Program-made: the position numbers and the translations under genes
From: a virus
Reading direction: 5' to 3' (one strand)
IMG/VR virus record: IMGVR_UViG_3300047457_000373
Coordinates: 1-28,223 of that record
Length of the DNA: 28,223 nucleotides
The notes under the pieces: generated by a model
Database searches by the model: none
The model's input: only the letters and a program-made list of their open reading frames with translations
What the model was told of the DNA's origin: nothing
In this document: positions 1,403 to 23,172 of the stretch, piece by piece
Numbering within the stretch: position 1 is the stretch's first letter
Layout: every line of letters starts with the position of its first letter

Positions 1403-2697
1403 TGGGCGACGAGAACGAAGATACCACCCTCAGCGAATACAACAAGATATTCGGGTCGATTAGTGACCCGCTATTCATGGTTGCTTCGGGCATTCTGACG
1501 CCCCAGGATTTGGCTGACATGATGAAGTATCTCACTTATGAACCAGTGAGTACTGATTGGCAGTCAATGAAGCAAGAGAATCAGTATTCCGATGGAACGC
1601 CGATTGATACTTTGCTTGCTGAGGCATACAATCAGGTTGAGCAGTATGGCCTTCGCCCCGAGTCTGTCCGTATTTGGATTATGAATCAGTTGCCTACGCG
1701 CAATGGCCAGATTTCCAACAGCGACATGGATAAGTTGGAATCGTGGATGAGTTTTGTTGATGAATTCAGCAAGCGATTTGAGGCAAGCATTGATGTTGCT
1801 AGTCCAGATGCAAAGGGTTATATTTGGGATTCCGCTACTGGCTCGTGGTTGAAGCCACTCGCTGATGATGTGGCCCGCCAGAATCTTCGCGATACCAATC
1901 TTGAAGGATTGTTCTCGCTCCCCGAAACTTGGCGTATCATTCCCGATGCGGTAACCCAGCAGGAGGCAATGGCTCTCGCTGATCGTGCCGAGCAACTTGG
2001 CAAGACAGCAGACAAAGCAGAAAGTGGAATGTGGAAGGCTGTTTCAAATGCGGCCAAAGAAGCGAAGGCTTCATTTTGGCAGTATCGTTTTGGTGTTGAA
2101 AAAGATGTTGCAGCCAGAAATACTGACGTTGCGCTTCCTGGTTCGCGTGGCCAGATGGAAGGATTGTCTCCCTCCGAACTGCCCAAGGGGACGCATCCCA
2201 ATTCTCCCGCTGCTCGCGATTTAGCGCAGCGCATGCTTCAGGCGCGCGGCATTCCGCGGCCTGCAACGCAAGGCAAAATCAATACTGTTGGTAAGGACAT
2301 TGCCACGATGGCAAAGTATGTTGCTCAACTTGCAACGCCAAAGAAGTCTTTGCCCGCTGTTGATGAAAAGACTCGCATCAACCTATCTGACCCCAATGGT
2401 TATTTCGCCAAGCAGGCAGAGTACTATGGTGCTAAAGGTGCTTGGTATGAGAATCAACCTGGCGTGTCAGAGAAGCGTGCTGCTGCTTCTGTTGTTGACA
2501 AGCAGGCAAAGGCGAAGGCGCTTGAAGCATACAATCTTGGTACTAGCGGCGCGTTGCAACTTCTTCAGGCTGGCGTTCCCGTAGCGCAGCCTCTTGTTTC
2601 TAGTAGTAGTGGTGGAAGCGGTCGCGCTGCACCTCGTGTTCTGTCCGATCAAGAGATCGAACAGATGGCCAACATGATTGCTGGAGGAATGGCATAG
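1402..2697 (+). CDS. Putative virion protein upstream of giant protein, 431 aa
   Basis: Unrecognised protein. The reading frame is open from GTG 1387, but ATG 1402 is chosen because it overlaps the previous stop as TAATG and has GGAG about ten bases upstream. The first 150 residues are acidic and rich in aromatic residues, including a run of short predicted helices. Residues about 180-250 are Ala/Lys-rich helix. The last 40 residues carry Val/Pro/Ser and a Ser-Gly linker before a final acidic helix. There is no signal peptide or membrane segment. Its stop shares one base with the next gene's start, so the two products are probably made in linked amounts. A structural or ejection role is inferred from context. 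Confidence 0.7.
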   Translation: MGDENEDTTLSEYNKIFGSISDPLFMVASGILTPQDLADMMKYLTYEPVSTDWQSMKQENQYSDGTPIDTLLAEAYNQVEQYGLRPESVRIWIMNQLPTRNGQISNSDMDKLESWMSFVDEFSKRFEASIDVASPDAKGYIWDSATGSWLKPLADDVARQNLRDTNLEGLFSLPETWRIIPDAVTQQEAMALADRAEQLGKTADKAESGMWKAVSNAAKEAKASFWQYRFGVEKDVAARNTDVALPGSRGQMEGLSPSELPKGTHPNSPAARDLAQRMLQARGIPRPATQGKINTVGKDIATMAKYVAQLATPKKSLPAVDEKTRINLSDPNGYFAKQAEYYGAKGAWYENQPGVSEKRAAASVVDKQAKAKALEAYNLGTSGALQLLQAGVPVAQPLVSSSSGGSGRAAPRVLSDQEIEQMANMIAGGMA

Positions 2698-5600
2698 TGG
2701 CAAACTGGGAAGACCTGCTAGCATCGGCACAGGGCGCAGACCAGACTAGACTTACGGGGACAAGGCCGAGGCCGAAGCGCCCCGCTGTCATCAGTCAGAA
2801 GGATGTGCTTGGTCCTTCTACGCCTGCCACTGAAGGCTTTGTTGCCCCTGGCAAAGAGCCGCCTGGTCCTGGTGGATGGAAAGGTTTCGTCACCGACCTA
2901 ATTGATTCTCCCCTTGGCAAGGTTATTACTGGTGCGGGAAATATTATTTCTTATCCTGGTCGTCTTGTAACGTCTAGCGTTCAGGAATGGGCGGACATGC
3001 TTGACTCCGACCCGAATACCAATGCTTCTTGGTCTGATATGTTTGAACAGGCCGCCAATCCTGAGTTTGGTTTTGGAAAAGTCATTGGCAATCTCACTGG
3101 GAATAAATGGGCTGATCGAATTCTTGGTTTTGCTGGCGATGTTTTTCTGGACCCACTTACATACGTGACGTTTGGTGGGGCTAAGGCATTTTCCGAAACA
3201 GCGAAACTTACTGGCAAGGCAGGTCGTACTGCTCGTCGCATTTCATCTCTTACTTCACAGGAAGGACGTTTGGCCTTGGCCAACCGCCTGTCTGATCTTG
3301 GCGCGGAGCCAGCATTGGTTCTTGACGCCGTTCGTCGTGGACGTGCAGCAGTAAAAGATGCCGATCTTCTTGCCAAGGCTGGGTACAGCCGCGCTGGCGT
3401 CTATTGGTTTGGGAAGCGCATACCAATGACAACGAAGTTGGGAACTGTTGCTGAAGGTTCTCTCACTTCGCTGCGGGTATGGTCTGGCGACCACGTGTTT
3501 AGGCGTTTGTCGTCGTTGTTTACTCCTCGTGATATGCAGGCCATTCGTGTTGCATTGGCGCGCGGTGAACGTCCCGCCACGGAGGAGAGCGTTGATCTTC
3601 TCAAGTTGGTTGTTAGCCGCAATGCCGAGCGCGCAGAGTGGGGCGCTGCTGGACGCAAGGCGTCCGTGTATCGCAAGCAGTTGACTAACGCTGTTTCCAG
3701 GGAAGACATTCAGTCTGCTCGTTCTACTGCATACAAGTATCTTGATGTGGCTGGCAAGCAAGCCCCTGCTGGTTCTGCAGCAGAACGTGTCGTCAACGGT
3801 GTTCGTCAGTTCTTGAATAATCTTGGCATGGATGTCTATAAGGCGGCCAAGGCTGTCGACCCTGAAGCACCCGTAGGGATGCTGGATAACTATTTCCCTC
3901 ACATCACGAGCGACAAGGCGTTGACGTGGATGAGCGATGATGGCAGTTCTCTCGCATTGACTGTTCGCGATCAGGTGTTCAATCCGCTTGACAACGTGTC
4001 TTCGTGGAAGACGCGTATGGAAGTTGGTGACGATTTCTTTGGCAAGATTCTGACGGAAGAAGATATCGCTGGCGGTATTGATTCATTGAATCAGATTGCT
4101 CGCGAGTATGGGAAACTTGATTTTGATTTCTTTGAAACTGATCTCCCAACAATTCTTGATAAGTATGTCGATGCATATACGAAGCAGATGGGTATTGTTG
4201 CTCGCCGCAAGAGCATGGTTGATAGCGGCGTGTACAAGAAACTGGATGAACTCATTGAGGTCAACCCAGAAATCGAGCGTGCTTTCTCTAGGGAGTTGAG
4301 GGCGGCGGACAAGGCGCGCGCCGCAGCACGTAACAAGGCTGTCAAGACTCTTGACGATTTCGTCAATTTCAGCAAATCGTTTATCAATGATGAGTTGAAG
4401 GCGGCAGACCAAGAAGCGTCTGGCGCTATGAAGAATGTTCTTGATGCCTGGGCCGAAGGTGCTGGCGCTGGGATGCAAAAGCATCTAGCAGAGAAGGCCC
4501 TGTCTTCCGCGAAGAACTCGCTGCTTGAAAAGCAGCATGCTCTCGCGGCAATGCTTGATGAGCGTAGCCCTATTCTTGATTTGTTGGAGGAGCGATACAA
4601 CTCCACGATCAAGCAGATTGATGATATCAATGCGGAACTTGGTCGTACGGAGACAGTCAGCCGTGAGATAATCGACAGGGTTTCTGTCCTGTCTAAGCAG
4701 ATTCAGGAAGACGCCAAGATTGAGGCAACGGTAGTTCAGAAATCAAATGTGATTCAGAACGACTGGTATTCTATTGTTGCTGGCAATAATCCCGCCCAAT
4801 ACAAGACGCTAGCGAATAATATTCGCACCGCCTTGTTTGGTGAGGTGAAGATTGAGGGCGGCATGGCGAAGAGGGTCAGTGGCTCTCGTCCTGTTATTGC
4901 CGACAAGGAACAGTTCAATTCTTTGGTTGCCGATTTCCGCAAGGAAATGAAGATTCCGAAGGGCAAGAAGTTGACTCCTGCCCAGTATCAGATTGTGCGC
5001 GATAGGTACGAGCGTGCTGGTGGCAAGTTCCTTGAGGGTGAAGTCGGCATCAAGAATCAGCCATGGTTCATGGCTGCACAGGGCGAGTCGCCCATAAATC
5101 TGGAAAAGATTGTCAAGGCAATTGAACCAGAGAGAGTGAAGACAACTGTCAACCGTGCTGTTGCTGGCGAAGCATCTCTTGAGGAGATGCGTGCGCTTGG
5201 CATGGCTATGCTTATTGCGCGTGATGATATTGCCCCAGAACTTAGAACTCGGATGGAGCAGTATCTTGCGGAGGCGGCAAAGGCCAACTCTTATCTTCTG
5301 GCATTCAAGCAGGCTCAACGTAGTAATCGTGGAGTAATTATTACTCAGCGCATTCTGGATAATTATGGCACTATCGAACGTGCGATCATCGATGACATTA
5401 CATCTTGGGCTTCGGCTAGTAACCTATTGGTAAAACTTGGTGACACCATCGATCAGATCGATGTTACACAGACAGTGCCATTTGACTTCTTGGCGCGACT
5501 TGTTGATAGCAATGAGTTTGCTTCACTCCGCAATTTGCTCGACCCATATCTTGGGTCGGATGATAACTTCATCAACATTAGGGCGCTTGCGAATATGCAA

Positions 5601-8600
5601 GAAGGATTTGAGGCTGGCGATCTTGCTGGTCTTGCGCTTCGCGGTACGGGAATAAATGCCAAATCTACCATTAGTGATCTTGGCGACTTTGCGATGGTGA
5701 ACTCCATTGAGGAGACACGCCCGATCACATGGGGCGAACTTGTCGATGTGCTTCAGAACCACATGAGAACTGTCCAGAAGAATACGTACGATATTGGGTT
5801 TGCTGTACAGGATATTGTTCGTGGCGAACTCAAGAATGTTACGACAGAGGGCAAGTGGATTGATGTTGGCGCCATGCTTGATTCCATGCGCTATGAACTT
5901 GGCAACTCGCCCTCGTTGGATGAAGTTGAGAAGTTTATTGATAGAGTCATCACTGGTAGGGTGGAGAAATCAAGCGTTAGAACGCGACCCATTACTGGTC
6001 GCGTCATGTATGACCCCTCTAGTGAATCTGACAGTCTTCGTTCTTTGATGAATGAAACTCGCAAGAAGTTGAATGCGCAAAGCAAGATTGACTTCTATGA
6101 TGTGAAGGGGCAGAAAGATGTTGCTGCTGCTCGCCGCGCAGTTCAGCGAGGTGAAGCGCCTGGTGAGGCGTTGAAGCAAGCCAAGATTGAGGCAACCGCG
6201 GACTTCGCTAAGCAGATTGAATCCATTGGTTATGGCGGTGCCAGTATTGACGATATTCGTCGCGAATTCGGCAACCTCCTAATGGAAGTGCATTTCAGGA
6301 GTGAAGTGCAATTGCGTTTCGACCGTGTTGTGGATTTGATGGCCAAGGAAGGACTTGTCGCCCACGAAGGAATGTTCAGGTCTGTAATCAATGCTGTTGC
6401 TCGCGACACCTCTAACGAGGTGTTCTCGCATAGCCGCGGTCTTGTGCGCGTTGAGTCAAAGATGCGCGAAGTTCTTGACATCATTGAGGGGAGCGATTGG
6501 ACTGGACGTTCTGAGGAATTGTATAATCGCCTACAGAGTATCGTCAACGATCAGACGTTTGACAACGACAGGTCGGTTGCTCTTATCACTCGTCTGAATG
6601 GCACTGGTTCAGCAAGCGAATTGTGGGCCGAATATAAGCGGTATGGTGGCAAGGCTGGTGACAGCGGATACGCATATCAGCGCAAGAAGATTGCTCAAGC
6701 ATTGAAGAACGACATGCTTACTACGGAGCAGCGTTTGGCCCTTCAGAAGGAACTTGAATCTCTTCCGACAGCAAAGCAATTGAGCGCATCAAAGATGCGT
6801 TTGAAGAAGGGCAAACTGCTGGACTGGTGGCGTGCACATATTGACCCGACCGCAACGTCGCTGAACGACAACGAGATTGTCGCCACCCTGAAGGAATACT
6901 CTGCAATCAAATCCAGTTCGGGCAGATTGACCGAAGACGCTTCTCCTATGGAGATGAAGCGTTGGGCGCAGGCAACTCTTGACAAGGCGCGGAACGCAAA
7001 TAGGGAACTGCGCAATCGCACTGGCTGGTTGCTTGATGCGAGCGACCCGTTTGTCGACGTACGACAGTTGAAGTTTACTGGCAATAGTATTCAGGACTTG
7101 CCCAGTTGGTACGCCAATAGTTTGTCCTATGGCGCACGTCGCCTGGAACAGGCAAACGATAGATTCAATCAATTGCTCAATGAAGCCATCAAGGCGGAAA
7201 TGACTATTGATGAATTCATTTATCGCATTGATGCCGAGAATCCAGATGTATGGAACTACCGTGACATCGTAGTAAATGAGGCGTTGAATCTTCCCAAGGG
7301 AGCCAAACTCACTGACGCTCAAGATGTTCTTGGCGCTTTGGAAATGCAAGACCTTCGCGCCATGCGCGCAATCCATTACAAGATTGCCGAGATCGAAAGT
7401 TCGCCAGAATATCTTCGTGCTCTTGTCCGACAGGACGAGCAAAAGATTATTGAACTCATGGTGCCATACGCCGCTAATCAACCTATCGATTTGTATTATC
7501 AGCGTCCGCGTCATGTCCTTGCGCGTGACGCATTTGATAAGGGCGTTACTCTTTATGTGAAAGAGGGCGAGCCGAATCTAGAGGCGAAGATCAATGTTGA
7601 AAAGGCCAAGCGAGATGTCGCGCGTTTGGAAAGTCAACGCGCTCAGGTTGCCGCCGACACGCAGAAGGGGCGCATGCAGACGGAAGAAGTTTATGCCGCT
7701 GCACAAGAAGAACGCACACGCACCCTTGCGCGTATAGATGCGGAATTGGAAATGGCTCGCGCGGAATATAACCGCAACTCCGCCATTGTCATGCAGGATA
7801 AGCGTTTTGAATCTGCTTCGTATAGGCCAGTTTTGAATCGTGCAGAAATCAAGCCTGGCAATACATACTTTACTGTCAAACAGGGAGCAGTCACCAAAGA
7901 TATCGAACGCTCACAAGAGCGTGTTATCTCATTGATGAAGGATAGTGAGAAGGCACGCAAACTTGCTGCTGGTAAACAAAGTGTTGAGCGTCTTGATCTT
8001 ATTGCAACCTCCAATAGACTTGCTCGCGAATCCGAAGATTTGCGCAAGTCAATCGATGATTCATTGCGCCCAATCCTTGAATCACCTGTTGAACCATTGA
8101 CTGTTTACACAGATCAATTTGCAACGCAGGTTAGTTTTGAACCGTGGGAAATTGAAATGTTGTTCAATTTCCACGGTGATACTAAGTTCCTCGCAGCACA
8201 AGCCCGTGAAACAGAAGGCAAGATTATTCCTACCATGCAACGATACTCTGGTGAAGTTGCATCTGCTGAAAGTGCAGCAAGAATGGGAGACGAGGGGCAA
8301 AGGGCTGCTTATCGTATGGCGAGACAGGAGGGCATGAGCGAGGAAGAAGCACGTCGCTACGCCGCAACTGTCACTCGTGCATCTGCGAAGCAGCGTGAAG
8401 CACGGCTCCCATCAATTGCTTCGATGCGCAAGGATATCGAGGATGCGGATGTCGCTGCGTTGCGTGCCGAGGCGCGCCTTGAGGGCGCTACTGCTAATGC
8501 GGATAAGCGGAATTCTGTTCTTCAAAAGATTCATTGGATTGCCAAATCAATTGGCGATGGCGATATTACCTTTGAAGACTTTGCCAATGCTTTATCGTTG

Positions 8601-11258
8601 ACATCAAAGTTGAACAAGGACAATATGTATACGGTTGACAACAACTTTGTTCGTTGGCGCAATGGTTACATTGGAAAGATTTGGTCCGATAGCAATGAGG
8701 CCAAGTTATTGGCTGGCGTGGAAGAGATGCGAAGTTCTGCGGAGGAAATCGCATACAATAAAACTGTGCGCGAAACGGGCAAGGTCGTCAAGACCGTTGC
8801 TGAAATGCGCAATGCCGCGCGCAAGGCGTGGGGCGATGTTCATGCACCACAACCTGGCGCCCCGTATGGTTACAAGCCATGGAACATTGGCGACTACAGC
8901 AGTTTGTATAAGACCAAGTACGATGAACTTGTCCAGTCTGGCGTCCCGTACAAGGAGGCTCAGGCAACTGCTCGCGAATTCGCTCGCACGCAAGCATACA
9001 AGGTTCCGTACGAGAAGCCTGTTGTTGGTGTGGCTGGAGCCAAGTATGAACTTGACCAGATCAGCGACGAATTGACTGGCAATCTTGAATCAATTACTCG
9101 TACAACCAATGGCGAGTACAATGCGCTTGAACGCTACGCCGCATTGCGTAGCGATGGAGCCAGCATTGGCGAAGCGGTCGATACCATTGCTCGCGAAGTT
9201 GTCGACATGCATCCAAAGGCGGATGTCCTAGTGACGTCAGCCAAACTCAACGAGTTTGCTTTCAGGAAAGCAGCGCGAGAAGCCGAGATCGGATTCCTCA
9301 AGAGCATCTATCCTGGCGATACATACGAAATCTTTGGTTTCGGTTTGACTCGTACGCAGACATTGGAGGGCACTCGCGACAAACTGGTCAAGACCGCCAA
9401 GTCCCTAGAGAAGGAACTCAAGAAGGAATGGGAAGTCGAGCGTGTCGCCACCAATCGTATTGAGCGTGGCCGCGCGAAACTTGTTGAGAAGAATGTGAGC
9501 GATGTTCTCCGAGCGGAAGAGGCATTGCTTGATGCTAGCAAGCGATTTGATTCTGCGCATGTGAACTACATGGATGCACAGAAGCATGCGGCTACTGTCG
9601 TGCCTTCGCTTCAGCGTAAGGCCGATGGACTGCGTACGATTCTTAGCAAACTGAATGCCATCAAGGATGGCATGGGCGACGATCTGCTTGCCACGAAACT
9701 TGAGATGGAGAACTGGCTCAAGGAATCAGAGGATTTGATGGCGGAGATTGGACATACTGCCGCACCCGAAAGCCAAGCCGCTATTAGCGGCGACGCTGGG
9801 CACTGGTTGACCGACGCCTATTCGGCGTATATCAATCGTCCAGTAGCGAAGAAGGATTACGAGAAGTTCCTTCGCCTCAAGGCAGATTACCTTGATGCTT
9901 CGGCCAATCTTGTCATGCGCGAACGTCAGGCTGCAGCCGCAGAGAACATGCTGCTCAATCTGAAGGATGGCTACTGGGGCAAGCGTGTGGTGAAACAGTT
10001 CAATGAGGGCATGGTTTCACTTGAGCGTTTGGGCTTGCCTTCATACCAGGCTGCGCCCGAACTTGAGGAGATTTCCCGCAACATGTCACAGATGTTGGAA
10101 CCATCCTACATTCGTGCGCTCAATAGGTTCATTGGCAAATACACGGGCTTCTTCAAATCGTATGCCACGTCGACACCAGGGTTCGTTGTTCGCAACACCC
10201 TTCAGAACACCTTCATGATTATGGCCGCTGGCGCATCGCCCAAGAATATGATCGAAGGTCTGGGCTGGTATCGTCAATTCATGCAGGCTGTCAATGATGG
10301 AACGCATGAGGCATGGCTGGAAGGCTTGTCCGAAACGGATAGGTTTACTGTCGGCTTGGCCATCAAGGCCGCCGATGCGTCTGGCTACGGAAAGACTAGC
10401 GACGCATTCTTGATGTGGAAACCTAAGCGTGCTGGCTTGACTGACAACAAGTACACTCGCCTATTCCGTACCCGCAACGAAGCAGTTGAAGGTAGTGCCC
10501 GATTCATGCTTGCCTACGATTCGGTTGTGCGTGGTCTTGATTTCAATCAAGCCACCGCACGCGTCAAGCGGTATCTGTTTGATTACACGGATGTCGGTGT
10601 TGGTGATGCGATCATGCGTCCTATTGTCCCGTTCTGGTTCTGGATGTCACGCAACCTGCCGCTACAGATCATGAACCAATGGCAGAACCCCCGCGCCTAC
10701 AACATCTACCAGGACGCCATGAACAATCTCGGCATCAACGATGACGAAGACAAGTTCTTGCCATCGTGGATGAAGGAACAGGGCGCCGTGAAGGTTGGCG
10801 ACAACCTGTACGTCATGATGGACATGGGATTCAATAGGGTGGGCCAGCAGTTTGAGGAGTTCTCTGACCCCGCTCGCCTGCTGTCGTACGTCAACCCGAT
10901 CTTGCGCCTACCGTTTGAAACGATCATCGGTGACCGCAAGTTCTATAGGAACGTGCCATTCAGGGACGAAGATCAGCAGACTGCTGGTGGTCCGCTGAAG
11001 CCTGCGGTTCAGTTGCTTGCTGAACTTCTGTTCCAAGGACGCGATCTCCCATCGGGAGAACGCGGTTCAAGCGAACGCTTCAACTATGCGGTTCAGAACC
11101 TCGTGCCGTTGCTCGGCCAGGTCGAGCGCATTATGCCCTCAACGGATTATAACGAGGAACGCCAGTTGAGCAACATCTTCGGATACTTGGGCATCCCATT
11201 GCGTGGTGTTACGGCATCGCAGCGTGAGGCTGAACAACGACGACAGGAGAACTGGTGA
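2697..11258 (+). CDS. Giant internal virion / ejection-type protein, 2853 aa
   Basis: A single uninterrupted frame encodes 2853 residues, almost all predicted helical. The start is GTG, overlapping the previous stop by one base, with GGAGG about ten bases upstream. Near the N-terminus (residues about 55-165) is a Gly-rich segment including LGFAGDVFLDPLTYVTFGGA, a pattern seen near the start of giant internal or 'polyvalent' phage proteins. Around residues 1625-1700 there is a long coiled coil rich in A, R, E and Q. The C-terminal region has a stretch like PGFVVRNTLQNT (about 2494) and then DYTDVGVGDAIMRPIVPFWFWMSRNLPLQ-type sequence (about 2629-2657), an aromatic, partly hydrophobic segment typical of the end of these proteins and possibly membrane-inserting. 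Known relatives are packaged in the head and injected with DNA. I saw no enzyme motif I could defend, so any lytic or polymerase activity is open. Confidence 0.75.
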   Translation: MANWEDLLASAQGADQTRLTGTRPRPKRPAVISQKDVLGPSTPATEGFVAPGKEPPGPGGWKGFVTDLIDSPLGKVITGAGNIISYPGRLVTSSVQEWADMLDSDPNTNASWSDMFEQAANPEFGFGKVIGNLTGNKWADRILGFAGDVFLDPLTYVTFGGAKAFSETAKLTGKAGRTARRISSLTSQEGRLALANRLSDLGAEPALVLDAVRRGRAAVKDADLLAKAGYSRAGVYWFGKRIPMTTKLGTVAEGSLTSLRVWSGDHVFRRLSSLFTPRDMQAIRVALARGERPATEESVDLLKLVVSRNAERAEWGAAGRKASVYRKQLTNAVSREDIQSARSTAYKYLDVAGKQAPAGSAAERVVNGVRQFLNNLGMDVYKAAKAVDPEAPVGMLDNYFPHITSDKALTWMSDDGSSLALTVRDQVFNPLDNVSSWKTRMEVGDDFFGKILTEEDIAGGIDSLNQIAREYGKLDFDFFETDLPTILDKYVDAYTKQMGIVARRKSMVDSGVYKKLDELIEVNPEIERAFSRELRAADKARAAARNKAVKTLDDFVNFSKSFINDELKAADQEASGAMKNVLDAWAEGAGAGMQKHLAEKALSSAKNSLLEKQHALAAMLDERSPILDLLEERYNSTIKQIDDINAELGRTETVSREIIDRVSVLSKQIQEDAKIEATVVQKSNVIQNDWYSIVAGNNPAQYKTLANNIRTALFGEVKIEGGMAKRVSGSRPVIADKEQFNSLVADFRKEMKIPKGKKLTPAQYQIVRDRYERAGGKFLEGEVGIKNQPWFMAAQGESPINLEKIVKAIEPERVKTTVNRAVAGEASLEEMRALGMAMLIARDDIAPELRTRMEQYLAEAAKANSYLLAFKQAQRSNRGVIITQRILDNYGTIERAIIDDITSWASASNLLVKLGDTIDQIDVTQTVPFDFLARLVDSNEFASLRNLLDPYLGSDDNFINIRALANMQEGFEAGDLAGLALRGTGINAKSTISDLGDFAMVNSIEETRPITWGELVDVLQNHMRTVQKNTYDIGFAVQDIVRGELKNVTTEGKWIDVGAMLDSMRYELGNSPSLDEVEKFIDRVITGRVEKSSVRTRPITGRVMYDPSSESDSLRSLMNETRKKLNAQSKIDFYDVKGQKDVAAARRAVQRGEAPGEALKQAKIEATADFAKQIESIGYGGASIDDIRREFGNLLMEVHFRSEVQLRFDRVVDLMAKEGLVAHEGMFRSVINAVARDTSNEVFSHSRGLVRVESKMREVLDIIEGSDWTGRSEELYNRLQSIVNDQTFDNDRSVALITRLNGTGSASELWAEYKRYGGKAGDSGYAYQRKKIAQALKNDMLTTEQRLALQKELESLPTAKQLSASKMRLKKGKLLDWWRAHIDPTATSLNDNEIVATLKEYSAIKSSSGRLTEDASPMEMKRWAQATLDKARNANRELRNRTGWLLDASDPFVDVRQLKFTGNSIQDLPSWYANSLSYGARRLEQANDRFNQLLNEAIKAEMTIDEFIYRIDAENPDVWNYRDIVVNEALNLPKGAKLTDAQDVLGALEMQDLRAMRAIHYKIAEIESSPEYLRALVRQDEQKIIELMVPYAANQPIDLYYQRPRHVLARDAFDKGVTLYVKEGEPNLEAKINVEKAKRDVARLESQRAQVAADTQKGRMQTEEVYAAAQEERTRTLARIDAELEMARAEYNRNSAIVMQDKRFESASYRPVLNRAEIKPGNTYFTVKQGAVTKDIERSQERVISLMKDSEKARKLAAGKQSVERLDLIATSNRLARESEDLRKSIDDSLRPILESPVEPLTVYTDQFATQVSFEPWEIEMLFNFHGDTKFLAAQARETEGKIIPTMQRYSGEVASAESAARMGDEGQRAAYRMARQEGMSEEEARRYAATVTRASAKQREARLPSIASMRKDIEDADVAALRAEARLEGATANADKRNSVLQKIHWIAKSIGDGDITFEDFANALSLTSKLNKDNMYTVDNNFVRWRNGYIGKIWSDSNEAKLLAGVEEMRSSAEEIAYNKTVRETGKVVKTVAEMRNAARKAWGDVHAPQPGAPYGYKPWNIGDYSSLYKTKYDELVQSGVPYKEAQATAREFARTQAYKVPYEKPVVGVAGAKYELDQISDELTGNLESITRTTNGEYNALERYAALRSDGASIGEAVDTIAREVVDMHPKADVLVTSAKLNEFAFRKAAREAEIGFLKSIYPGDTYEIFGFGLTRTQTLEGTRDKLVKTAKSLEKELKKEWEVERVATNRIERGRAKLVEKNVSDVLRAEEALLDASKRFDSAHVNYMDAQKHAATVVPSLQRKADGLRTILSKLNAIKDGMGDDLLATKLEMENWLKESEDLMAEIGHTAAPESQAAISGDAGHWLTDAYSAYINRPVAKKDYEKFLRLKADYLDASANLVMRERQAAAAENMLLNLKDGYWGKRVVKQFNEGMVSLERLGLPSYQAAPELEEISRNMSQMLEPSYIRALNRFIGKYTGFFKSYATSTPGFVVRNTLQNTFMIMAAGASPKNMIEGLGWYRQFMQAVNDGTHEAWLEGLSETDRFTVGLAIKAADASGYGKTSDAFLMWKPKRAGLTDNKYTRLFRTRNEAVEGSARFMLAYDSVVRGLDFNQATARVKRYLFDYTDVGVGDAIMRPIVPFWFWMSRNLPLQIMNQWQNPRAYNIYQDAMNNLGINDDEDKFLPSWMKEQGAVKVGDNLYVMMDMGFNRVGQQFEEFSDPARLLSYVNPILRLPFETIIGDRKFYRNVPFRDEDQQTAGGPLKPAVQLLAELLFQGRDLPSGERGSSERFNYAVQNLVPLLGQVERIMPSTDYNEERQLSNIFGYLGIPLRGVTASQREAEQRRQENW

Positions 11259-11752
11259 TGAAACTCTGGAAGGGCAAGCGCACATACACGGGCTTCGATA
11301 AGCAGGCTTCGGGTAGACGCGCTGGAACACAGAAGTTGATTGACTATGTGTTGTTCTTGAACGGCGGCAAGATCAAGAATCTTGGTTCGTTCATGGTGCG
11401 CGACATGCGGGGGAAGGCTGGCAAGCCCAGCGTCCACAGTACGGGGCGGGCTATTGATTTCGGTTACACGAACCGCGAAGATGGTCTCGCTCTGGCGGAC
11501 TTTTTCGTCCGCAACTGGGAGGCCTTTGGCGTTGAGTTGATTGTTGACTATTATCCGACGCCCCATGGGCGCGGATGGAATGTGACTCGTCTTGCTTGGC
11601 AGGACTACAAGAAGCCGACAGTAAGCGGCGCCCCCTATGGGCGCTGGCTCCACGTGGAAATCAGTAACGAGGTTGCTGATAACGCCGCTTACATCGACTT
11701 CGTATTCGCTCTGCTACTTGCTGATACGAGAGGTCACGACCCCTCGTCCTGA
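11258..11752 (+). CDS. M15-type peptidoglycan peptidase (endolysin candidate), 164 aa
   Basis: The protein carries the zinc-site signature of M15 / D-Ala-D-Ala carboxypeptidase-like peptidases: SVHSTGRAIDFG with His60 and Asp67 as ligands, and WLHVE with His132 as the third ligand. Other M15-like phage enzymes of this type cut peptide bonds in the cell-wall stem peptide. There is no signal peptide, membrane helix or separate wall-binding domain, so export would need a holin, or the enzyme could act from the virion. ATG 11258 overlaps the giant gene's stop as TGATG and has AGGAG upstream, so it is translated with that gene. A GTG one codon earlier is less likely. It is the last gene of the rightward block and converges on the leftward replication block. 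Confidence 0.8.
   Translation: MKLWKGKRTYTGFDKQASGRRAGTQKLIDYVLFLNGGKIKNLGSFMVRDMRGKAGKPSVHSTGRAIDFGYTNREDGLALADFFVRNWEAFGVELIVDYYPTPHGRGWNVTRLAWQDYKKPTVSGAPYGRWLHVEISNEVADNAAYIDFVFALLLADTRGHDPSS
11726..11747. terminator. Possible bidirectional terminator hairpin at convergent gene ends
   Basis: ACGAG and CTCGT flank an inner GGT/ACC pair with one A-C mismatch and a CACG loop. The hairpin lies inside the overlapping 3' ends of the lysin gene and the leftward 85-aa gene, exactly where two convergent transcripts meet. No T-run follows on either strand, so intrinsic termination is uncertain. Confidence 0.3.
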
Positions 11753-12139: not shown

Positions 12140-12293
12140 TGTTATCTTCCTCCATCCGCGTAGCAATCACTTCCGACATCTGGGCAATCTGATCTATCGC
12201 CTTGTCGTCGTCACCCACAACAAACAGGGTGAGGGCAATGAGCAGTGCTTCCATTTCAATGGGCGACAATCGCTCGTGTTCAAACATTTTCAT
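12117..12293 (-). CDS. Small acidic helical protein, 58 aa
   Basis: Unrecognised. ATG 12293 overlaps the upstream stop as ATGA and follows AAGGAGG, a near-perfect ribosome site. The sequence is a hydrophobic helix (residues about 14-26, rich in Leu, Ala and Val) followed by an acidic tail. The hydrophobic stretch is short and contains Glu, so a membrane helix is unlikely; a small helical adaptor fits better. It is translationally coupled to the HTH-Nmad1 fusion gene before it. Confidence 0.65.
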   Translation of the reverse strand: MKMFEHERLSPIEMEALLIALTLFVVGDDDKAIDQIAQMSEVIATRMEEDNNGETPKE

Positions 12294-13060
12294 GATTCCT
12301 CCTTGAGGTTGAGACTGAACGTATTCATAAAGAGCATTTCGGAAATCACCGAATAGCCAACGATGTCCATCCACGTATCGATCAATGATTCGTTGGATGG
12401 TTCCGCTCCGCTATCCAGCAGGGTATTGAGTCTTGCCAGTTTATCACACAACCGAATCATGAGTCCGACATGTCCGAACTCCAAGATGTTGTTATGCCCG
12501 TAGTCTCGTTGCTTGCGCACGAGAAGGGCAACCATCTCTTCGGCATCCCATTGCTTGCGATAACGCAATTCGTTGACAGCAAGGTAGGCGAGATCAATGA
12601 TGAGAAGCCGAGGCGTCTCCTCCTGTTCCCGTACTGCCTTGGCTAGGCGCGTGCGATAGAACTCAATGTGCGGATGGTGAGCCGCTTGCGAACCAGACGT
12701 ACCGTCCCATTCGATAACGATTGCTTCAGCCGCATCTTCCCAGTTGTCGAACACCTTGTACCTCATGTTGATAGCGTGGTTGGTGAATAGTTTGCGCTCA
12801 AGTTCAGCGATGGCTTTGCGAGCCAATCGCCAAGCGTGAGGCTTGGATACCCCGAGCCGCTTACCAAGTGTGCTGTATGAGATGCCCTCATAGAAGATGG
12901 CCTCAACACAGAACCTTGCTTCTGGCCCGAGTGTTTCAATCGCATCACGCACGGCCTCAATGTGCGCAATGTCGTAGTTGGTTGTATCGTCCCCATACTG
13001 TAGCAGTCTTTCTGCTTCGGTCGTGGGCACTGCTGCCAATACGTCAGGGTCAAACGGCAT
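12290..13060 (-). CDS. Sigma-region-4-like HTH fused to DUF1599/Nmad1-type domain, 256 aa
   Basis: Two recognisable parts. Residues about 36-91 form a sigma-70 region-4 or LuxR-like helix-turn-helix (AIETLGPEARFCVEAIF..GISYSTLGKRLGVS), the kind that contacts promoter DNA. Residues about 181-245 resemble DUF1599, 'nucleotide modification associated domain 1': KQRDYG, then IRLCDKLARLN, then DTWMDIVGY. That domain is found in phages and has been linked by genome context to modified bases. The linker of about 90 residues is helical with Trp/His-rich patches. ATG 13060 is chosen over an upstream start because GGAG lies ten bases before it. It overlaps both neighbours. It could couple promoter binding to nucleotide metabolism, or the HTH may be a remnant; the joint role is inference. 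Confidence 0.7.
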   Translation of the reverse strand: MPFDPDVLAAVPTTEAERLLQYGDDTTNYDIAHIEAVRDAIETLGPEARFCVEAIFYEGISYSTLGKRLGVSKPHAWRLARKAIAELERKLFTNHAINMRYKVFDNWEDAAEAIVIEWDGTSGSQAAHHPHIEFYRTRLAKAVREQEETPRLLIIDLAYLAVNELRYRKQWDAEEMVALLVRKQRDYGHNNILEFGHVGLMIRLCDKLARLNTLLDSGAEPSNESLIDTWMDIVGYSVISEMLFMNTFSLNLKEES

Positions 13061-13514
13061 GGCGGATAGGCTCCGATGGGAAGTTCTCAATCGGCAATGC
13101 GAAGTACGGCTGGTTGTTATCGTGGAACCTGTCCACGCTGGCATGCTTGTGGCATGCCTTCAACCAATCCACAAGAGGAGAATCCCAATACCTCTTGCGA
13201 GACGAATCGTAAATCCACATCCTGATCGGCCCGATGCACTGCCATGTCTGAAGTGCTGAAGCCTTGTTCAGTTTCAGTTTGAGCGTACCATCACCACGTG
13301 ACGCCACGCCCATCACCTCATACAGGCAGTCGGGAACCATGAAGTCTGGTGCGTATCGCATGGCGTCGGCCATGCCACGCACATCAAAGACAGGGCGGTT
13401 GAGACCCATGCGGTGAGCGTAAGGGTGGATACCCAAGAACGCTGTCTCCGCCGTGTCACCCATTGAACCGTACCTGCCGTTCCAACTCTTGTCCTTGAAG
13501 GCGGCGGCGTTCAT
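13050..13514 (-). CDS. Unknown protein, possibly nuclease-fold, 154 aa
   Basis: I do not recognise it firmly. Around residues 54-85 it has APDFMVPDCLYEV followed by LKLKLNK, which resembles the PD...E.K core of PD-(D/E)XK nucleases, with an E at residue 6 or 23 as a possible extra ligand. The usual Lys two residues after the core Glu is Met here; the later Lys residues would have to substitute. The C-terminal half is Trp- and His-rich. It lies directly after the RusA gene with an ATGA overlap, so a DNA-processing role fits the context. The fold assignment is tentative. Confidence 0.65.
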   Translation of the reverse strand: MNAAAFKDKSWNGRYGSMGDTAETAFLGIHPYAHRMGLNRPVFDVRGMADAMRYAPDFMVPDCLYEVMGVASRGDGTLKLKLNKASALQTWQCIGPIRMWIYDSSRKRYWDSPLVDWLKACHKHASVDRFHDNNQPYFALPIENFPSEPIRHAV

Positions 13515-17585: not shown

Positions 17586-17625
17586 ATTGTAGCAACGGGG
17601 TTTGTCAACTGGTGGGTAGAGACGA

Positions 17626-17667
17626 CGAAAGCCCCCGACACAGGGGCGCTGTGCCGAGGGCGTTTCG
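17626..17667 (-). terminator. Intrinsic terminator of the amidoligase unit
   Basis: A long imperfect hairpin starts directly after the TAA of the 46-aa zinc-ribbon gene: CACAG/CTGTG, CG/CG and GCCC/GGGC stems with two mismatches, extended by CGAAA/TTTCG with one bulge, and a 5-base loop. On the minus strand the stem ends GGGCTTTCG followed by TCGTCTCT, a modest U-rich tail. It marks the end of the seven-gene leftward unit. Confidence 0.7.
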
Positions 17668-17808
17668 TTACTTGCCTTGCGGAACCATCTTGACCCAGCC
17701 ACCACGGTGCTTGATACAAGACGGTGGTTCCGATAATACCACATGGGTTGTCAACTTAGTGCCACACTTGGGGCATACCCAGCGTTCCGTGTTGTCAGAA
17801 CGGTTCAT
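17668..17808 (-). CDS. Small zinc-ribbon protein, 46 aa
   Basis: A short gene with a clear metal-binding pattern: WVCPKCG (Cys12, Cys15), then PPSCIKH (Cys31 and His34), giving a CxxC...CxxH zinc site. The rest is short and basic at the end. It overlaps the upstream gene by 14 bases and is followed without a gap by a terminator hairpin, both of which support it as a real last gene. There is no strong ribosome site, so translation probably depends on the preceding gene. Small zinc ribbons like this occur widely in phages, often without known roles. A regulatory or adaptor function is possible. Confidence 0.7.
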   Translation of the reverse strand: MNRSDNTERWVCPKCGTKLTTHVVLSEPPSCIKHRGGWVKMVPQGK

Positions 17809-18055
17809 CGGGCATGGGTTCTGGCTGGAACCAGCGCACGAGATCAAGCGCGCTCAGGTAGTCATCCACTTGCTCAACGATTTCCTGAGGCAACTGATTC
17901 AAGATGAAACGCTTCTTGTTCTTGTTGTCGTTGACATACAGCCCGCCCTCCGTGCTCCATTGGAGTTCGTGAGAACGGACGTTACCGTGCTCATCGAAAT
18001 CCACGAAGACAAGAGGGGAGTACACCATCGTGTACGGGGTTGATGCTTCTCTCAT
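17795..18055 (-). CDS. Unknown small protein in amidoligase unit, 86 aa
   Basis: Not recognised. The first 45 residues look beta-rich (MVYSPLVFVDFDEHGNV, then a Gly-containing turn), followed by a basic NKNKKRF segment and an acidic helical C-terminus ending in Pro/Glu. It could be a small alpha/beta binding protein. A near-ideal AGGAGG lies five bases before the ATG, and the preceding gene's TAG is part of the same stretch. It sits next to last in a seven-gene unit whose identifiable members are an amidoligase and a glutamine amidotransferase. Confidence 0.65.
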   Translation of the reverse strand: MREASTPYTMVYSPLVFVDFDEHGNVRSHELQWSTEGGLYVNDNKNKKRFILNQLPQEIVEQVDDYLSALDLVRWFQPEPMPDEPF

Positions 18056-18063
18056 GCTTCCTC

Positions 18064-18498
18064 CTAGTTGTTTGCTGATTGGATTGCCCGAAGTTCTCGG
18101 ATTGCGTCACCGAACATACCTTCACCATTCGGTACTTCCTCAATCGTTTCGCCCTTGAACTGGAGAGCGATACGTTCCTCTCCGTTGTGGAAGTAGACGA
18201 TGACACGGACACGGCGACGTTCCTCGCCCCCCACTTCCTCGTTGTCCTCCGTGACAGGGGTAGCCCAGCCGTACATCATCATCATGTACTCCTGTGCGCT
18301 GTCCTTTGGCGTTGACTGAACACACAGGGGGAGCAGATGGTACGGGTCTTGCGTTGGCAAGACCTGAATGTCCCACTCGTTGAGGCTACTACCCCTTGCC
18401 CACACGCTGGCATACTGGTCGTTCCACGAGTCGGCATTCGTTGCCCACACAAGAAACGAGTTGAAGAGTTCATCGTTGGTGCTGAGTTTGTTGTTCAT
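18064..18498 (-). CDS. Unknown protein in amidoligase unit, 144 aa
   Basis: Not recognised. The N-terminal half is rich in Asn, Ser, Asp and Trp, suggesting a globular domain with several turns. The middle has an acidic run followed by an Arg-rich strand (ERRRVRVIVYFHNG), and the C-terminus is amphipathic. There is no signal peptide, membrane helix or recognisable catalytic signature. AAAGG is well spaced before the ATG. It belongs to the amidoligase unit and is a reasonable candidate for a substrate, partner or inhibitor of that system, purely by position. Confidence 0.65.
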   Translation of the reverse strand: MNNKLSTNDELFNSFLVWATNADSWNDQYASVWARGSSLNEWDIQVLPTQDPYHLLPLCVQSTPKDSAQEYMMMMYGWATPVTEDNEEVGGEERRRVRVIVYFHNGEERIALQFKGETIEEVPNGEGMFGDAIRELRAIQSANN

Positions 18499-18507
18499 GG
18501 TTGCCTT

Positions 18508-18705
18508 TCAGTTAGTGAGTTGGTCAAGAATCTGACGTTGAATGTTGGCTAGCAGGTTGAGGTCAGAGAGCGCATCGCTACCCCGATGAGAGTCAGTACC
18601 CAGACGGGCAACCTTACTATTGAGGTTGTCAATCGCAATACCGATTGTCTTGTGAAGAGCAGACAACTCCTCAAAGGTTACATCAAGACTGAGTGTCGGT
18701 TCCAT
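18508..18705 (-). CDS. Small coiled-coil-like protein, 65 aa
   Basis: Not recognised. Two helices rich in Leu, Ile, Ala and Asp/Asn are separated by a short basic/Gly turn (RLGTDSHRGSD), a helical hairpin that could dimerise. Its ATG overlaps the previous gene's stop as TAATG, and AAGGA lies upstream within that gene. It follows a one-helix membrane peptide in the amidoligase unit, so the two may act as a pair, but no direct sign of this is visible. Confidence 0.65.
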   Translation of the reverse strand: MEPTLSLDVTFEELSALHKTIGIAIDNLNSKVARLGTDSHRGSDALSDLNLLANIQRQILDQLTN

Positions 18706-18824
18706 TATTCGTTATCCTTCCGTAGTTCGTAGAGAGCATGATTGTATCCGACATGAAACGAGAACGCCATCAGGCCGACGACGATTCCCGCCCACAAGAA
18801 TGAGATGAGCAATACCCAGTTCAT
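18705..18824 (-). CDS. One-helix membrane peptide, 39 aa
   Basis: A short gene with one strong membrane segment: residues about 3-25 (WVLLISFLWAGIVVGLMAFSF) are almost all hydrophobic, followed by a polar, charged tail ending in RKDNE. The topology is probably N-out or N-in with a short cytoplasmic tail; charges do not settle it. AAAGGAAG precedes the ATG, which sits directly after the amidotransferase stop, and its own stop overlaps the next ATG as TAATG. It is the only clear membrane protein in the window, so it could tether the amidoligase system to the membrane or be a small holin-like peptide; neither is shown. Confidence 0.7.
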   Translation of the reverse strand: MNWVLLISFLWAGIVVGLMAFSFHVGYNHALYELRKDNE

Positions 18825-19676
18825 TTACTTCCTTTCCAATTGTAGTTTCGGATGCCAACAGTAGCAGGACGAGTAGTCCTTCTCGCAGAACCAGCACGTG
18901 CCGCACTCGGGGCAGGCACGAGGCTCGTCATCAGCGAGATCAATAGCAGTTGTCAGGTCGCACACATTACAACGCCAGTCAACAATCTCGTCCTCGTAGT
19001 ACCACTCGTCTTGCTCCTCGTCCCACTGCCACGAGTTGTTGATGACAAGCGCATCATCTTGTGGGGTGTAGCCGTGACCGTTGTATGAACGCAACGACGC
19101 AGACGAATACGACATCCACGAGTTGTAGTTCTTGGTGTACGACGAGTTGGAATACCACACGCCCTTGTCCCAGTGACCGAGCCGTTCGTTCACGATGTAG
19201 AACGGATGATCGAGTTGCGGATTGGCGGAAACAATAGCCAACTTGGAACCCGTCGCAAAGGATTCCAAGTCTGCGAAGCCTTGCGGTGTGTCCAACATTT
19301 CCTTGATACCCATCGTCGGCAGCCACTCCTCAGCGAACTGACGAGTGTCAGACTTGCCATCTTGTTCCTTGATGGGAAGCATGCCGTTGTGCGCAAGCAC
19401 GATGGCGTCATCCACTACGAACGGATGGCAGTTGTCCAGATTCGTAGCACCATGCGTGGTGATACGGAGATGGAAGATGGAATGGCTATCGGGGAACCGC
19501 TTGCGGAGATCAAAGAACTCCTTGATGGTGTCCTCAATAGACATGGACTTGTAGTACAAGACTTCCTTGTTGGTGCGCACAGCGAACCCGAACCCATCAG
19601 GATTGTTGTTCGCGGCACGACGCAAGGCTTTCTTGGACGGGTTGCTATTGGGTGAAGCGTAGATGAGCAAACACAT
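18825..19676 (-). CDS. Class II glutamine amidotransferase with Cys-rich C-terminus, 283 aa
   Basis: An Ntn-type (class II) glutamine amidotransferase. Met is followed by Cys2, the expected nucleophile, in MCLLIYA. Other family signatures are present and intact: NNPDGFGFA (25-32), HLRITTHG (Arg71, Thr73, Gly76), NCHPF (82-86), and AHNG (Asn97, Gly98, oxyanion hole). The reaction is release of ammonia from glutamine for a partner enzyme. The C-terminal 50 residues carry eight cysteines (236, 239, 255, 258, 261, 264, 271, 273) that look like one or two zinc ribbons and are unusual for the family. ATG 19676 is chosen because it exposes Cys2 and has GGAG nine bases upstream. It lies just downstream of the amidoligase, its likely partner. 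Confidence 0.88.
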   Translation of the reverse strand: MCLLIYASPNSNPSKKALRRAANNNPDGFGFAVRTNKEVLYYKSMSIEDTIKEFFDLRKRFPDSHSIFHLRITTHGATNLDNCHPFVVDDAIVLAHNGMLPIKEQDGKSDTRQFAEEWLPTMGIKEMLDTPQGFADLESFATGSKLAIVSANPQLDHPFYIVNERLGHWDKGVWYSNSSYTKNYNSWMSYSSASLRSYNGHGYTPQDDALVINNSWQWDEEQDEWYYEDEIVDWRCNVCDLTTAIDLADDEPRACPECGTCWFCEKDYSSCYCWHPKLQLERK

Positions 19677-19699
19677 TTGATGTATCTCCTGTTCTGTGG

Positions 19700-20920
19700 T
19701 CAGAGACCACGGGTAGTGACGAGTGACTGAGCGTGCGTGAACTCTGGCTGAGCGAACAGCCACTCACGATACGCTGGCCACAGAATGTTCTTGTGCGAGT
19801 CAAGTGAAGTGAACTTGGTCTGCTTGGTGTACTGCCACAACGAGTGCGTGAACTCCAACACACCCTTGACAGTCTGCTCTCTGAGACTGCCACGGAAGTA
19901 GCGCAGTTCCACAGTGTTGCGGTTTTGGAGATTGACTGCGACATAACGGTCGCCGTTCACTTCCAATCCCATCGCCTGCTTCACTCTGTCCATCTTGACA
20001 TCGTGGTTCCAGTCACGAATCGTGCGTCCGAACTTGGAGTAGGTGGACTCACGACCCGCCAACTTGACAAGTTCATTGATGTTCTTGTCATGAAATTGGA
20101 GGAACGCACCGAGGTGGAGTTTGCTAAACGATGACTTGCTGATGTGAACATGAAGCCCAGCGCCAGCGCCACGCCACGATGTCATACCGAAATCGGTAGC
20201 AAGTTTGTTGAGCATGTGCCACGGGAACAACTCCAAGTGGGTGCGATAGTCACACGGTTCGGTGACAATCTCAAACCCAGAGATGCTTCCGTCCTCCTTC
20301 ATGATGAGGTAGTCGTCAGGCGATGCGTCACGCAGAGCGATAGCACCACGCTCACGCAACTCGTAACCCGACCCCTCTCGCATGTTGGTCTCCAACTCAA
20401 AGCCGAGATACGGAATCTCGTGACGACCACGACCAGTGAGAACACAGTCGTTGATGGCGGCATCCCAATGACGGAACACGCTACCCAACTTGGTTGAGTA
20501 CGACCTGATGACATTAGACGGATATTCATAGTCACAGTCATCACCGTAGTGCTCATCCTCAATCACGATTAGGCAATCGTCACAGTAAGGACCATCGCGG
20601 AAGTCGGGATAGTTGGACTGGTGCGCCCAGATGGTGTCATCGCAACGCTCACATGTGTTGTGAGTTTCGCAATAGCAATCCTCGCAATAGATCTCGCCGT
20701 TCAGCGAGGATGGATAGCGATTTGTTTCTGGCGTCGGCTCGTTACATTCGTGGCAGACGAAGAAACATTCCTCGCAATACATGTGATAGCGCTGACGCCA
20801 GCGGTGCTGTTCGTCATACGAGTATCCGTCCGCGACGGACGTAAGCAAACCCCCCTCGCCACAGTTGTGGCACTCACTAATCGGTGGTTCCTCGGGAACG
20901 AAATCCTCTGCTGATGTCAT
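19700..20920 (-). CDS. Zinc-ribbon GS-like amidoligase (COOH-NH2 ligase), 406 aa
   Basis: The C-terminal two thirds match putative amidoligase (Amidoligase_2, glutamine-synthetase-like fold): GFELETN (173-179, with Glu175 and Glu177), KEDGSISGFEIVTEP (208-222), GLHVHIS (255-261, with His257 and His259), and VNLQNRNTVELRYFRG (329-344, with Glu338 and Arg340). These enzymes use ATP to join a carboxyl and an amine, forming amide or peptide-like bonds. Residues 17-129 hold an array of cysteines (17, 20, 49, 52, 56, 59, 79, 82, 84, 90, 93, 113, 116, 129), consistent with three treble-clef or zinc-ribbon units, a possible substrate reader. The class II amidotransferase follows after 23 bases. GAAAGGAAAG precedes the ATG. 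The target is unknown. Confidence 0.85.
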   Translation of the reverse strand: MTSAEDFVPEEPPISECHNCGEGGLLTSVADGYSYDEQHRWRQRYHMYCEECFFVCHECNEPTPETNRYPSSLNGEIYCEDCYCETHNTCERCDDTIWAHQSNYPDFRDGPYCDDCLIVIEDEHYGDDCDYEYPSNVIRSYSTKLGSVFRHWDAAINDCVLTGRGRHEIPYLGFELETNMREGSGYELRERGAIALRDASPDDYLIMKEDGSISGFEIVTEPCDYRTHLELFPWHMLNKLATDFGMTSWRGAGAGLHVHISKSSFSKLHLGAFLQFHDKNINELVKLAGRESTYSKFGRTIRDWNHDVKMDRVKQAMGLEVNGDRYVAVNLQNRNTVELRYFRGSLREQTVKGVLEFTHSLWQYTKQTKFTSLDSHKNILWPAYREWLFAQPEFTHAQSLVTTRGL

Positions 20921-20964
20921 GGTTACTTTCCTTTCTGTTGTTGTTGGTTGTTGTTGCTTCCGAG

Positions 20965-20982
20965 TTGATAGGAACCTATCAA
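20965..20982 (-). promoter_or_regulatory. Palindromic element copy 1, heading the amidoligase unit
   Basis: TTGATAGGAACCTATCAA: two 8-base arms around AA. On the minus strand it lies 44 bases before the amidoligase ATG and supplies tandem TGA-TAG stops for the preceding gene. The leader between it and the ribosome site is rich in CAA repeats and looks unstructured. Probable operator or promoter core. Confidence 0.6.
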
Positions 20983-22080: not shown

Positions 22081-22098
22081 TTGATAGGAACCTATCAA
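22081..22098 (-). promoter_or_regulatory. Palindromic element copy 2
   Basis: An exact copy of TTGATAGGAACCTATCAA, in the same orientation as the other copies, 51 bases before the ATG of the 75-aa gene. It is followed on the minus strand by a possible leader structure (GCGTG-AAATC-CACGC with GTGT/ACAC flanks). It lies between this unit and the one upstream. Confidence 0.6.
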
Positions 22099-22645: not shown

Positions 22646-22663
22646 TTGATAGGAACCTATCAG
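22646..22663 (-). promoter_or_regulatory. Palindromic element copy 3 (one mismatch)
   Basis: TTGATAGGAACCTATCAG, identical to the other copies except for the last base. It lies 76 bases before the ATG of the 60-aa gene. As with copy 1, its minus-strand TGA-TAG supplies two in-frame stops for the gene upstream. Confidence 0.55.
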
Positions 22664-23154: not shown

Positions 23155-23172
23155 TTGATAGGAACCTATCAA
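23155..23172 (-). promoter_or_regulatory. Palindromic element copy 4
   Basis: An exact copy, with arms extended by one more base pair (G/C) on each side. It sits only about 21 bases before the next gene's inferred start, so a repressor bound here would also cover the ribosome site region at the DNA level. Confidence 0.6.

Follow-up and report, generated by a model that had tools for sequence, protein, structure and literature searches.

Viral record IMGVR_UViG_3300047457_000373 encodes a ligase resembling glutamine synthetase (GS) next to a glutamine amidotransferase, with five small genes behind them, and the question is which of these genes belong together and what they make. The whole record of 28,223 bases was analysed and is called the window here. 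The seven open reading frames listed by the initial annotation were all confirmed; they are closely spaced on the minus strand and run from 20920 to 17668. That annotation read them as one cassette, in which a new set of partner genes accompanies the two enzymes. We find that the ligase and the amidotransferase form a functional unit of their own and that the five small genes are its lineage neighbours.

In the window, the ligase gene comes first and ends at 19700; the amidotransferase gene starts on the same strand at 19676, leaving 23 nucleotides between them. Among 166 fetched loci, 161 held both genes; the ligase gene preceded the amidotransferase gene in 160, and in 159 the two lay within 300 nucleotides of each other. 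Loci that depart from this pairing are mostly found at contig ends. The median gap over 142 non-redundant groups was 2 nucleotides, and none of these groups showed a fusion of the two genes. The control set consisted of 36 non-redundant groups of relatives, identified by way of the PD-(D/E)XK exonuclease encoded just downstream. Both genes were present in 17 of these groups and neither in 19, and no group held only one. The absences were confirmed by searches of the whole records, several of which are 36–39 kilobases long. Distances in the ligase alignment correlated with those in the amidotransferase alignment (r = 0.90, 98 groups). With near-obligate pairing, a fixed order and joint presence or absence, the pair is a real functional unit. 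The pairing corresponds to the type that Iyer and colleagues predicted, as the initial annotation had proposed, and it does occur in phages.

The pair is present in hundreds of viral contigs and also occurs in clostridial genomes. In the clostridial genomes, a recognised amidotransferase adjoins the ligase in 52 of 80 ligase loci; at least one of the remaining loci (L364) has a divergent GATase_6 protein beside the ligase. These loci (L286–L365, mostly clostridial genomes) place the pair in Oscillospiraceae and other Clostridia, sometimes in several copies per genome. A serine-recombinase-like gene is found near the pair in 36 groups of this range. The clostridial copies probably sit on a mobile element.

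The ligase matched the Pfam family Amidoligase_2 (PF12224) with 28.6 bits at a cut-off of 22. The predicted structure has a predicted local distance difference test score (pLDDT) of 86 and adopts a GS-like fold. Its fold matches were YbdK, GS, Dop, PafA and GmaS (gamma-glutamylmethylamide synthetase), with E values of 7e-6 to 1e-3 and template modelling (TM) scores of about 0.3, and its sequence identity to them is low (10–16%). Thirteen positions are invariant in the alignment of 47 relatives: G173, E175, E177, D210, G215, E217, G255, H257, H259, R325, N330, E338 and R340. Of these, E175 and E177 are the E-x-E pair. The family match and the model identify the protein as a predicted GS-fold Amidoligase_2 member, a COOH-NH2 ligase of Iyer et al., and bear out the original assignment. 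Amide formation by the ligase would be ATP-dependent. The catalytic part comprises approximately residues 160–406 and is preceded by a cysteine-rich region (approximately residues 17–120), in which Cys90, Cys93, Cys113 and Cys116 are invariant or nearly so in the aligned relatives. This N-terminal region probably binds zinc; its resemblance to a LIM-type zinc finger is weak.

The amidotransferase matched Pfam GATase_4 (PF13230) with 32.3 bits at a cut-off of 23, and its predicted structure also has a pLDDT of 86. GlmS-type glutaminase structures top the fold list (probability 1.00), and PurF glutaminase domains match as well. For both proteins the TM scores are low (about 0.3–0.5), and the matches are therefore fold assignments and not signs of close kinship. 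Residues C2, R71, N97, G98 and D110 are invariant in the 47–48 aligned relatives; the first four had been noted as intact in the initial annotation. The C-terminal tail is cysteine-rich. This tail and the N-terminal region of the ligase had both been overlooked. The model and the full set of catalytic residues support a class II glutamine amidotransferase with a predicted N-terminal nucleophile (Ntn) hydrolase fold.

Structures of EgtC are also among the nearest folds, and the phage amidotransferase has been classed as degradative (PMC5498523). An EgtC-like gamma-glutamyl amide hydrolase would undo or trim the product of the ligase, and the two steps would be gamma-glutamylation and release with no sharing of ammonia. 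The best matches in fold and in sequence, however, are the glutaminase domains of GlmS and PurF, which are true ammonia donors, and no variation is seen in the Arg, Asn, Gly and Asp of the glutamine site. We regard the hydrolase alternative as very unlikely.

Glutamine-dependent ligase chemistry is the probable activity of the pair. In the mechanism that we propose, the amidotransferase would split glutamine by means of its Cys2 nucleophile and free ammonia, which would pass to the ligase. The ligase would use ATP to turn a carboxylate into an acyl phosphate and would form an amide from it with that ammonia or with a different amine. Expression of the pair would come from the early gene block on the replication side, and the five small genes would not be needed. 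The likeliest substrate would be a carboxylate of the host peptidoglycan stem peptide or of its precursor. The phage would thereby alter the wall of its host, for instance in order to shut out competitor phages or to set the action of a wall-cutting enzyme. We favour this target because of the lysozyme-like neighbours of the pair, the cell-wall modification already proposed for such phage genes (PMC5498523, PMC10580990, PMC11318856) and the precedent of MurT/GatD. That the pair is a glutamine-fed, amide-forming unit acting on host peptidoglycan is a plausible reading, to which we give slightly less than an even chance.

Of 104 non-redundant phage groups, 63 have a secreted lysozyme-like gene from one of three families close to the pair, "secreted" meaning a short protein with an N-terminal signal-like stretch, as judged by eye. 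The families are AggPromo_Cterm (the aggregation-promoting-factor C-terminal type; 39 groups), SLT_3/SLT (18 groups) and the Rpf-type Transglycosylas (6 groups). Most of the genes lie within about 2.3 kilobases of the pair. In the control set, such a gene was present in 12 of the 17 groups with the pair and in 4 of the 19 without it (p = 0.006, uncorrected for kinship). WhiB-type regulators, which are actinobacterial, are encoded near the pair in 51 of the 104 groups, and the host of the window's lineage is therefore probably actinobacterial; the window itself gave no WhiB match. For the actinobacterial phages we suggest, as a doubtful extension, that the pair and the secreted enzyme serve one early peptidoglycan-remodelling programme. 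The pair would amidate wall carboxylates and the enzyme, independently recruited from three families, would act on the altered wall, either in the exclusion of rivals or in the regulation of lysis.

Several observations weigh against a peptidoglycan target. The link to lysozyme-like genes may partly be lineage background: one branch has an SLT gene in a fixed block between the 65-residue gene and the exonuclease gene. In the sister phages of the window (L012, L167 and L193), the SLT gene is flanked by the zinc-ribbon gene and a 149-residue gene; at this slot the window has no lysozyme-like gene and measures only 173 nucleotides, which hold a hairpin. Neither the ligase nor the amidotransferase has an N-terminal signal-like stretch, and thus only cytoplasmic precursors would be within reach. 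The closeness of the amidotransferase to EgtC, an amide hydrolase and not an ammonia donor, counts in the same direction. Single-sequence searches of limited sensitivity found no gamma-glutamyl cyclotransferase, ATP-grasp enzyme or second COOH-NH2 ligase of the classical cassettes in the window, and in the literature we found no biochemical study testing this family of phage proteins.

The pair could instead amidate a small cytoplasmic metabolite of nitrogen metabolism or signalling, in an auxiliary metabolic or counter-defence role and not at the wall. The soluble small-molecule ligases YbdK, GS and GmaS rank high in the fold search of the ligase, and the genes have been treated as nitrogen-related auxiliary genes (PMC10945688). 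The recurrence of lysozyme-like neighbours from three families would be unexpected for such a role, and a defence function was rejected, as the PADLOC defence library gave no match. We consider a metabolite substrate unlikely.

Related phages do carry the five small genes together with the pair, as had been anticipated, but these genes are also found without it. For this reason the seven-gene cassette was rejected, and the small genes are a shared neighbourhood and not partners of the pair. The 65-residue, 86-residue and zinc-ribbon genes are present in relatives whose whole records hold neither ligase nor amidotransferase. The zinc-ribbon, 149-residue and exonuclease genes, joined by the 86-residue gene in closer relatives, form a conserved block whether or not the pair is present, and the zinc-ribbon gene is equally common in both situations (16 of 17 groups with the pair, 17 of 19 without). 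The 65-residue gene is more frequent where the pair is present (16 of 17 groups versus 7 of 19), but it does not depend on it and was rejected as a partner. The 144-residue protein, which has no Pfam or PDB match, initially seemed to be a pair-specific third member; a dedicated search then recovered its family at 80 loci, at 53 of which the pair was not seen. Contig ends cut some of these 53 and others extend 7 kilobases on both sides; many carry WhiB. The membrane peptide has weak relatives near the pair, and peptides alike in size and layout occur in the same region of phages without it. We provisionally place it in the neighbourhood as well. Recognising the small genes as non-partners saves effort on them.

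These counts also bear on a protein target. PafA/Dop-like modification of a host or phage protein, whether amidation or an isopeptide-like bond, would fit the finding of PafA and Dop as structural neighbours of the ligase, whose conserved cysteine-rich region could recruit a protein. We found no Pup-like or other obligate small protein travelling with the pair, although a distant or host-encoded one may exist, and the candidates occur without the pair too. A protein target is, in our view, quite unlikely.

The features of the locus are collected in Table 1. A purine-rich Shine–Dalgarno-like stretch precedes six of the seven genes, and the pair and the five small genes are probably transcribed together. 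The start of the zinc-ribbon gene overlaps the 3' end of the 86-residue gene (17795–17808); the same bases encode DEPF at the C-terminus of the 86-residue protein and MNRS at the N-terminus of the zinc ribbon, and both ends are conserved in relatives.

Table 1. Genes and flanking elements of the ligase–amidotransferase locus, in window coordinates.
Feature	Position	Strand	Basis or remark
GS-fold amidoligase (Amidoligase_2), 406 aa	19700..20920	-	Pfam PF12224, predicted fold, invariant residues
Class II glutamine amidotransferase (Ntn hydrolase), 283 aa	18825..19676	-	PF13230, predicted fold, catalytic residues
One-helix membrane peptide, 39 aa	18705..18824	-	hydropathy 2.35 over 19 residues
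65-aa conserved protein	18508..18705	-	seen with and without the pair
144-aa protein, GWA[AST]P...RRVR family	18064..18498	-	dedicated family search
86-aa conserved protein	17795..18055	-	present in phages without the pair
46-aa zinc ribbon	17668..17808	-	invariant A4, W10, C12, C15, C31, H34 in alignment
Palindromic element TTGATAGGTTCCTATCAA	20965..20982	.	directly 5' of the ligase gene, 1 of 4 copies
GC-rich hairpin	17625..17668	-	zinc-ribbon gene end; folding energy −32.1 kcal/mol, z = −3.26

The unit had been described as starting at a palindrome and ending at a terminator. The palindrome TTGATAGGTTCCTATCAA does lie just upstream, but the window holds four copies of it in the early region (20965–20982, 22081–22098, 22646–22663 and 23155–23172; 0.01 expected by chance), so it is a phage-wide element and not specific to this unit. 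The four copies are located at the starts of early units. Relatives have other repeated palindromes at equivalent places: TGTGTGCTAGCACACA five times in L182, TTTAATTTCAAATTAAA nine times in L174, TTAAGTTAAACTTAA seven times in L169 and CTTTACACCTGTAAAG five times in L200. L008, with a ligase 95% identical to that of the window, has TAGGATTTCCTA at the matching place. This looks like fast-switching operator specificity. No sigma-70-type promoters above chance were found in the region. At the other end, the hairpin after the zinc-ribbon gene folds and is a probable transcription end, but its U-tract is weak and a simple terminator scan did not list it.

Other genes of the neighbourhood were also noted. 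A DUF932-type protein is encoded directly before the 65-residue gene in L171 (5713–6714), L168 (5679–6689) and L013 (7730–8731); this neighbour occurs in phages that lack the pair as well as in some that have it. Farther upstream, L171 also has a gene of the GP88 family. In the window, positions 2697–11258 form an open reading frame of 2853 residues, and the protein of 11255–11752 has an HSTGRAIDFG...HVEIS pattern and a weak match to Extensin-like_C; it is possibly a D,D-peptidase-like endolysin. The protein of 12290–13075 combines sigma-70 region 4 with DUF1599 (nucleotide modification associated domain 1), which raises the question of whether the pair helps to produce a modified DNA base. 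Of the relatives, 17 of the 19 that lack the pair encode this protein, as do all 18 that have it, so it is part of the lineage backbone, and we give a role in base modification hardly any weight.

The pair of the window belongs to a known phage kind, since such pairs have already been annotated or described in sequenced phages: adjacent pairs in Marvin and its relatives, in MEP401/402 and in a spring-water podovirus record, and pairs within larger cassettes in LUZ24-like, phiEco32-like and PSA-HP1 phages. In the literature we did not find reports of its joint presence or absence within one phage lineage, of its company with three lysozyme-like families, or of its substrate. The all-or-none occurrence of the two genes and their recurrent secreted wall-cutting neighbours in actinophage-like viruses turn the old cell-wall prediction into a specific test, namely a search for amidated muropeptides.

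The Marvinvirus mycobacteriophage Marvin has, like the window, a ligase gene directly followed by an amidotransferase gene of the same families (gp105/gp106). Identity is about 36% over 174 residues for the amidotransferase and about 25–28% over the catalytic part for the ligase. Marvin differs in that its pair lies at the right genome end, its ligase has a longer C-terminal part and none of the five small genes is beside it. The OM43 phages MEP401 and MEP402 (PMC10580990) share the adjacent PF12224 and GATase genes, which in their case precede primase and helicase genes. They differ in their proteobacterial host, in the absence of the small-gene block and in that no lysozyme-like neighbour was seen. 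The "peptidoglycan modification cassette" of PSA-HP1, phiEco32, LUZ24, PaP3, tf and UFV-P2 (PMC5498523, PMC3890496) also holds an Amidoligase_2 protein and a class II amidotransferase in one cluster. It additionally contains other amidoligase-type enzymes, ATP-grasp and, in several of these phages, gamma-glutamyl cyclotransferase. We saw this cassette in L004; single-sequence searches with the L004 copies, which have limited sensitivity, found none of these additional members in the window or the other loci.

YbdK, GS, GmaS and PafA/Dop have the GS-like ligase fold in common with the ligase of the window. To our knowledge, none of them has a stand-alone class II amidotransferase partner. PafA/Dop differ further in working with Pup, for which no counterpart was found here. 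MurT/GatD have the folds of a Mur ligase and a class I amidotransferase, which are unrelated to those of the pair. The fold matches of the pair are GS-like and class II. What the two systems share is the logic of an adjacent ATP-dependent ligase and glutaminase; MurT/GatD of Staphylococcus aureus is reported to amidate the glutamate of peptidoglycan in this way (PMC3267633).

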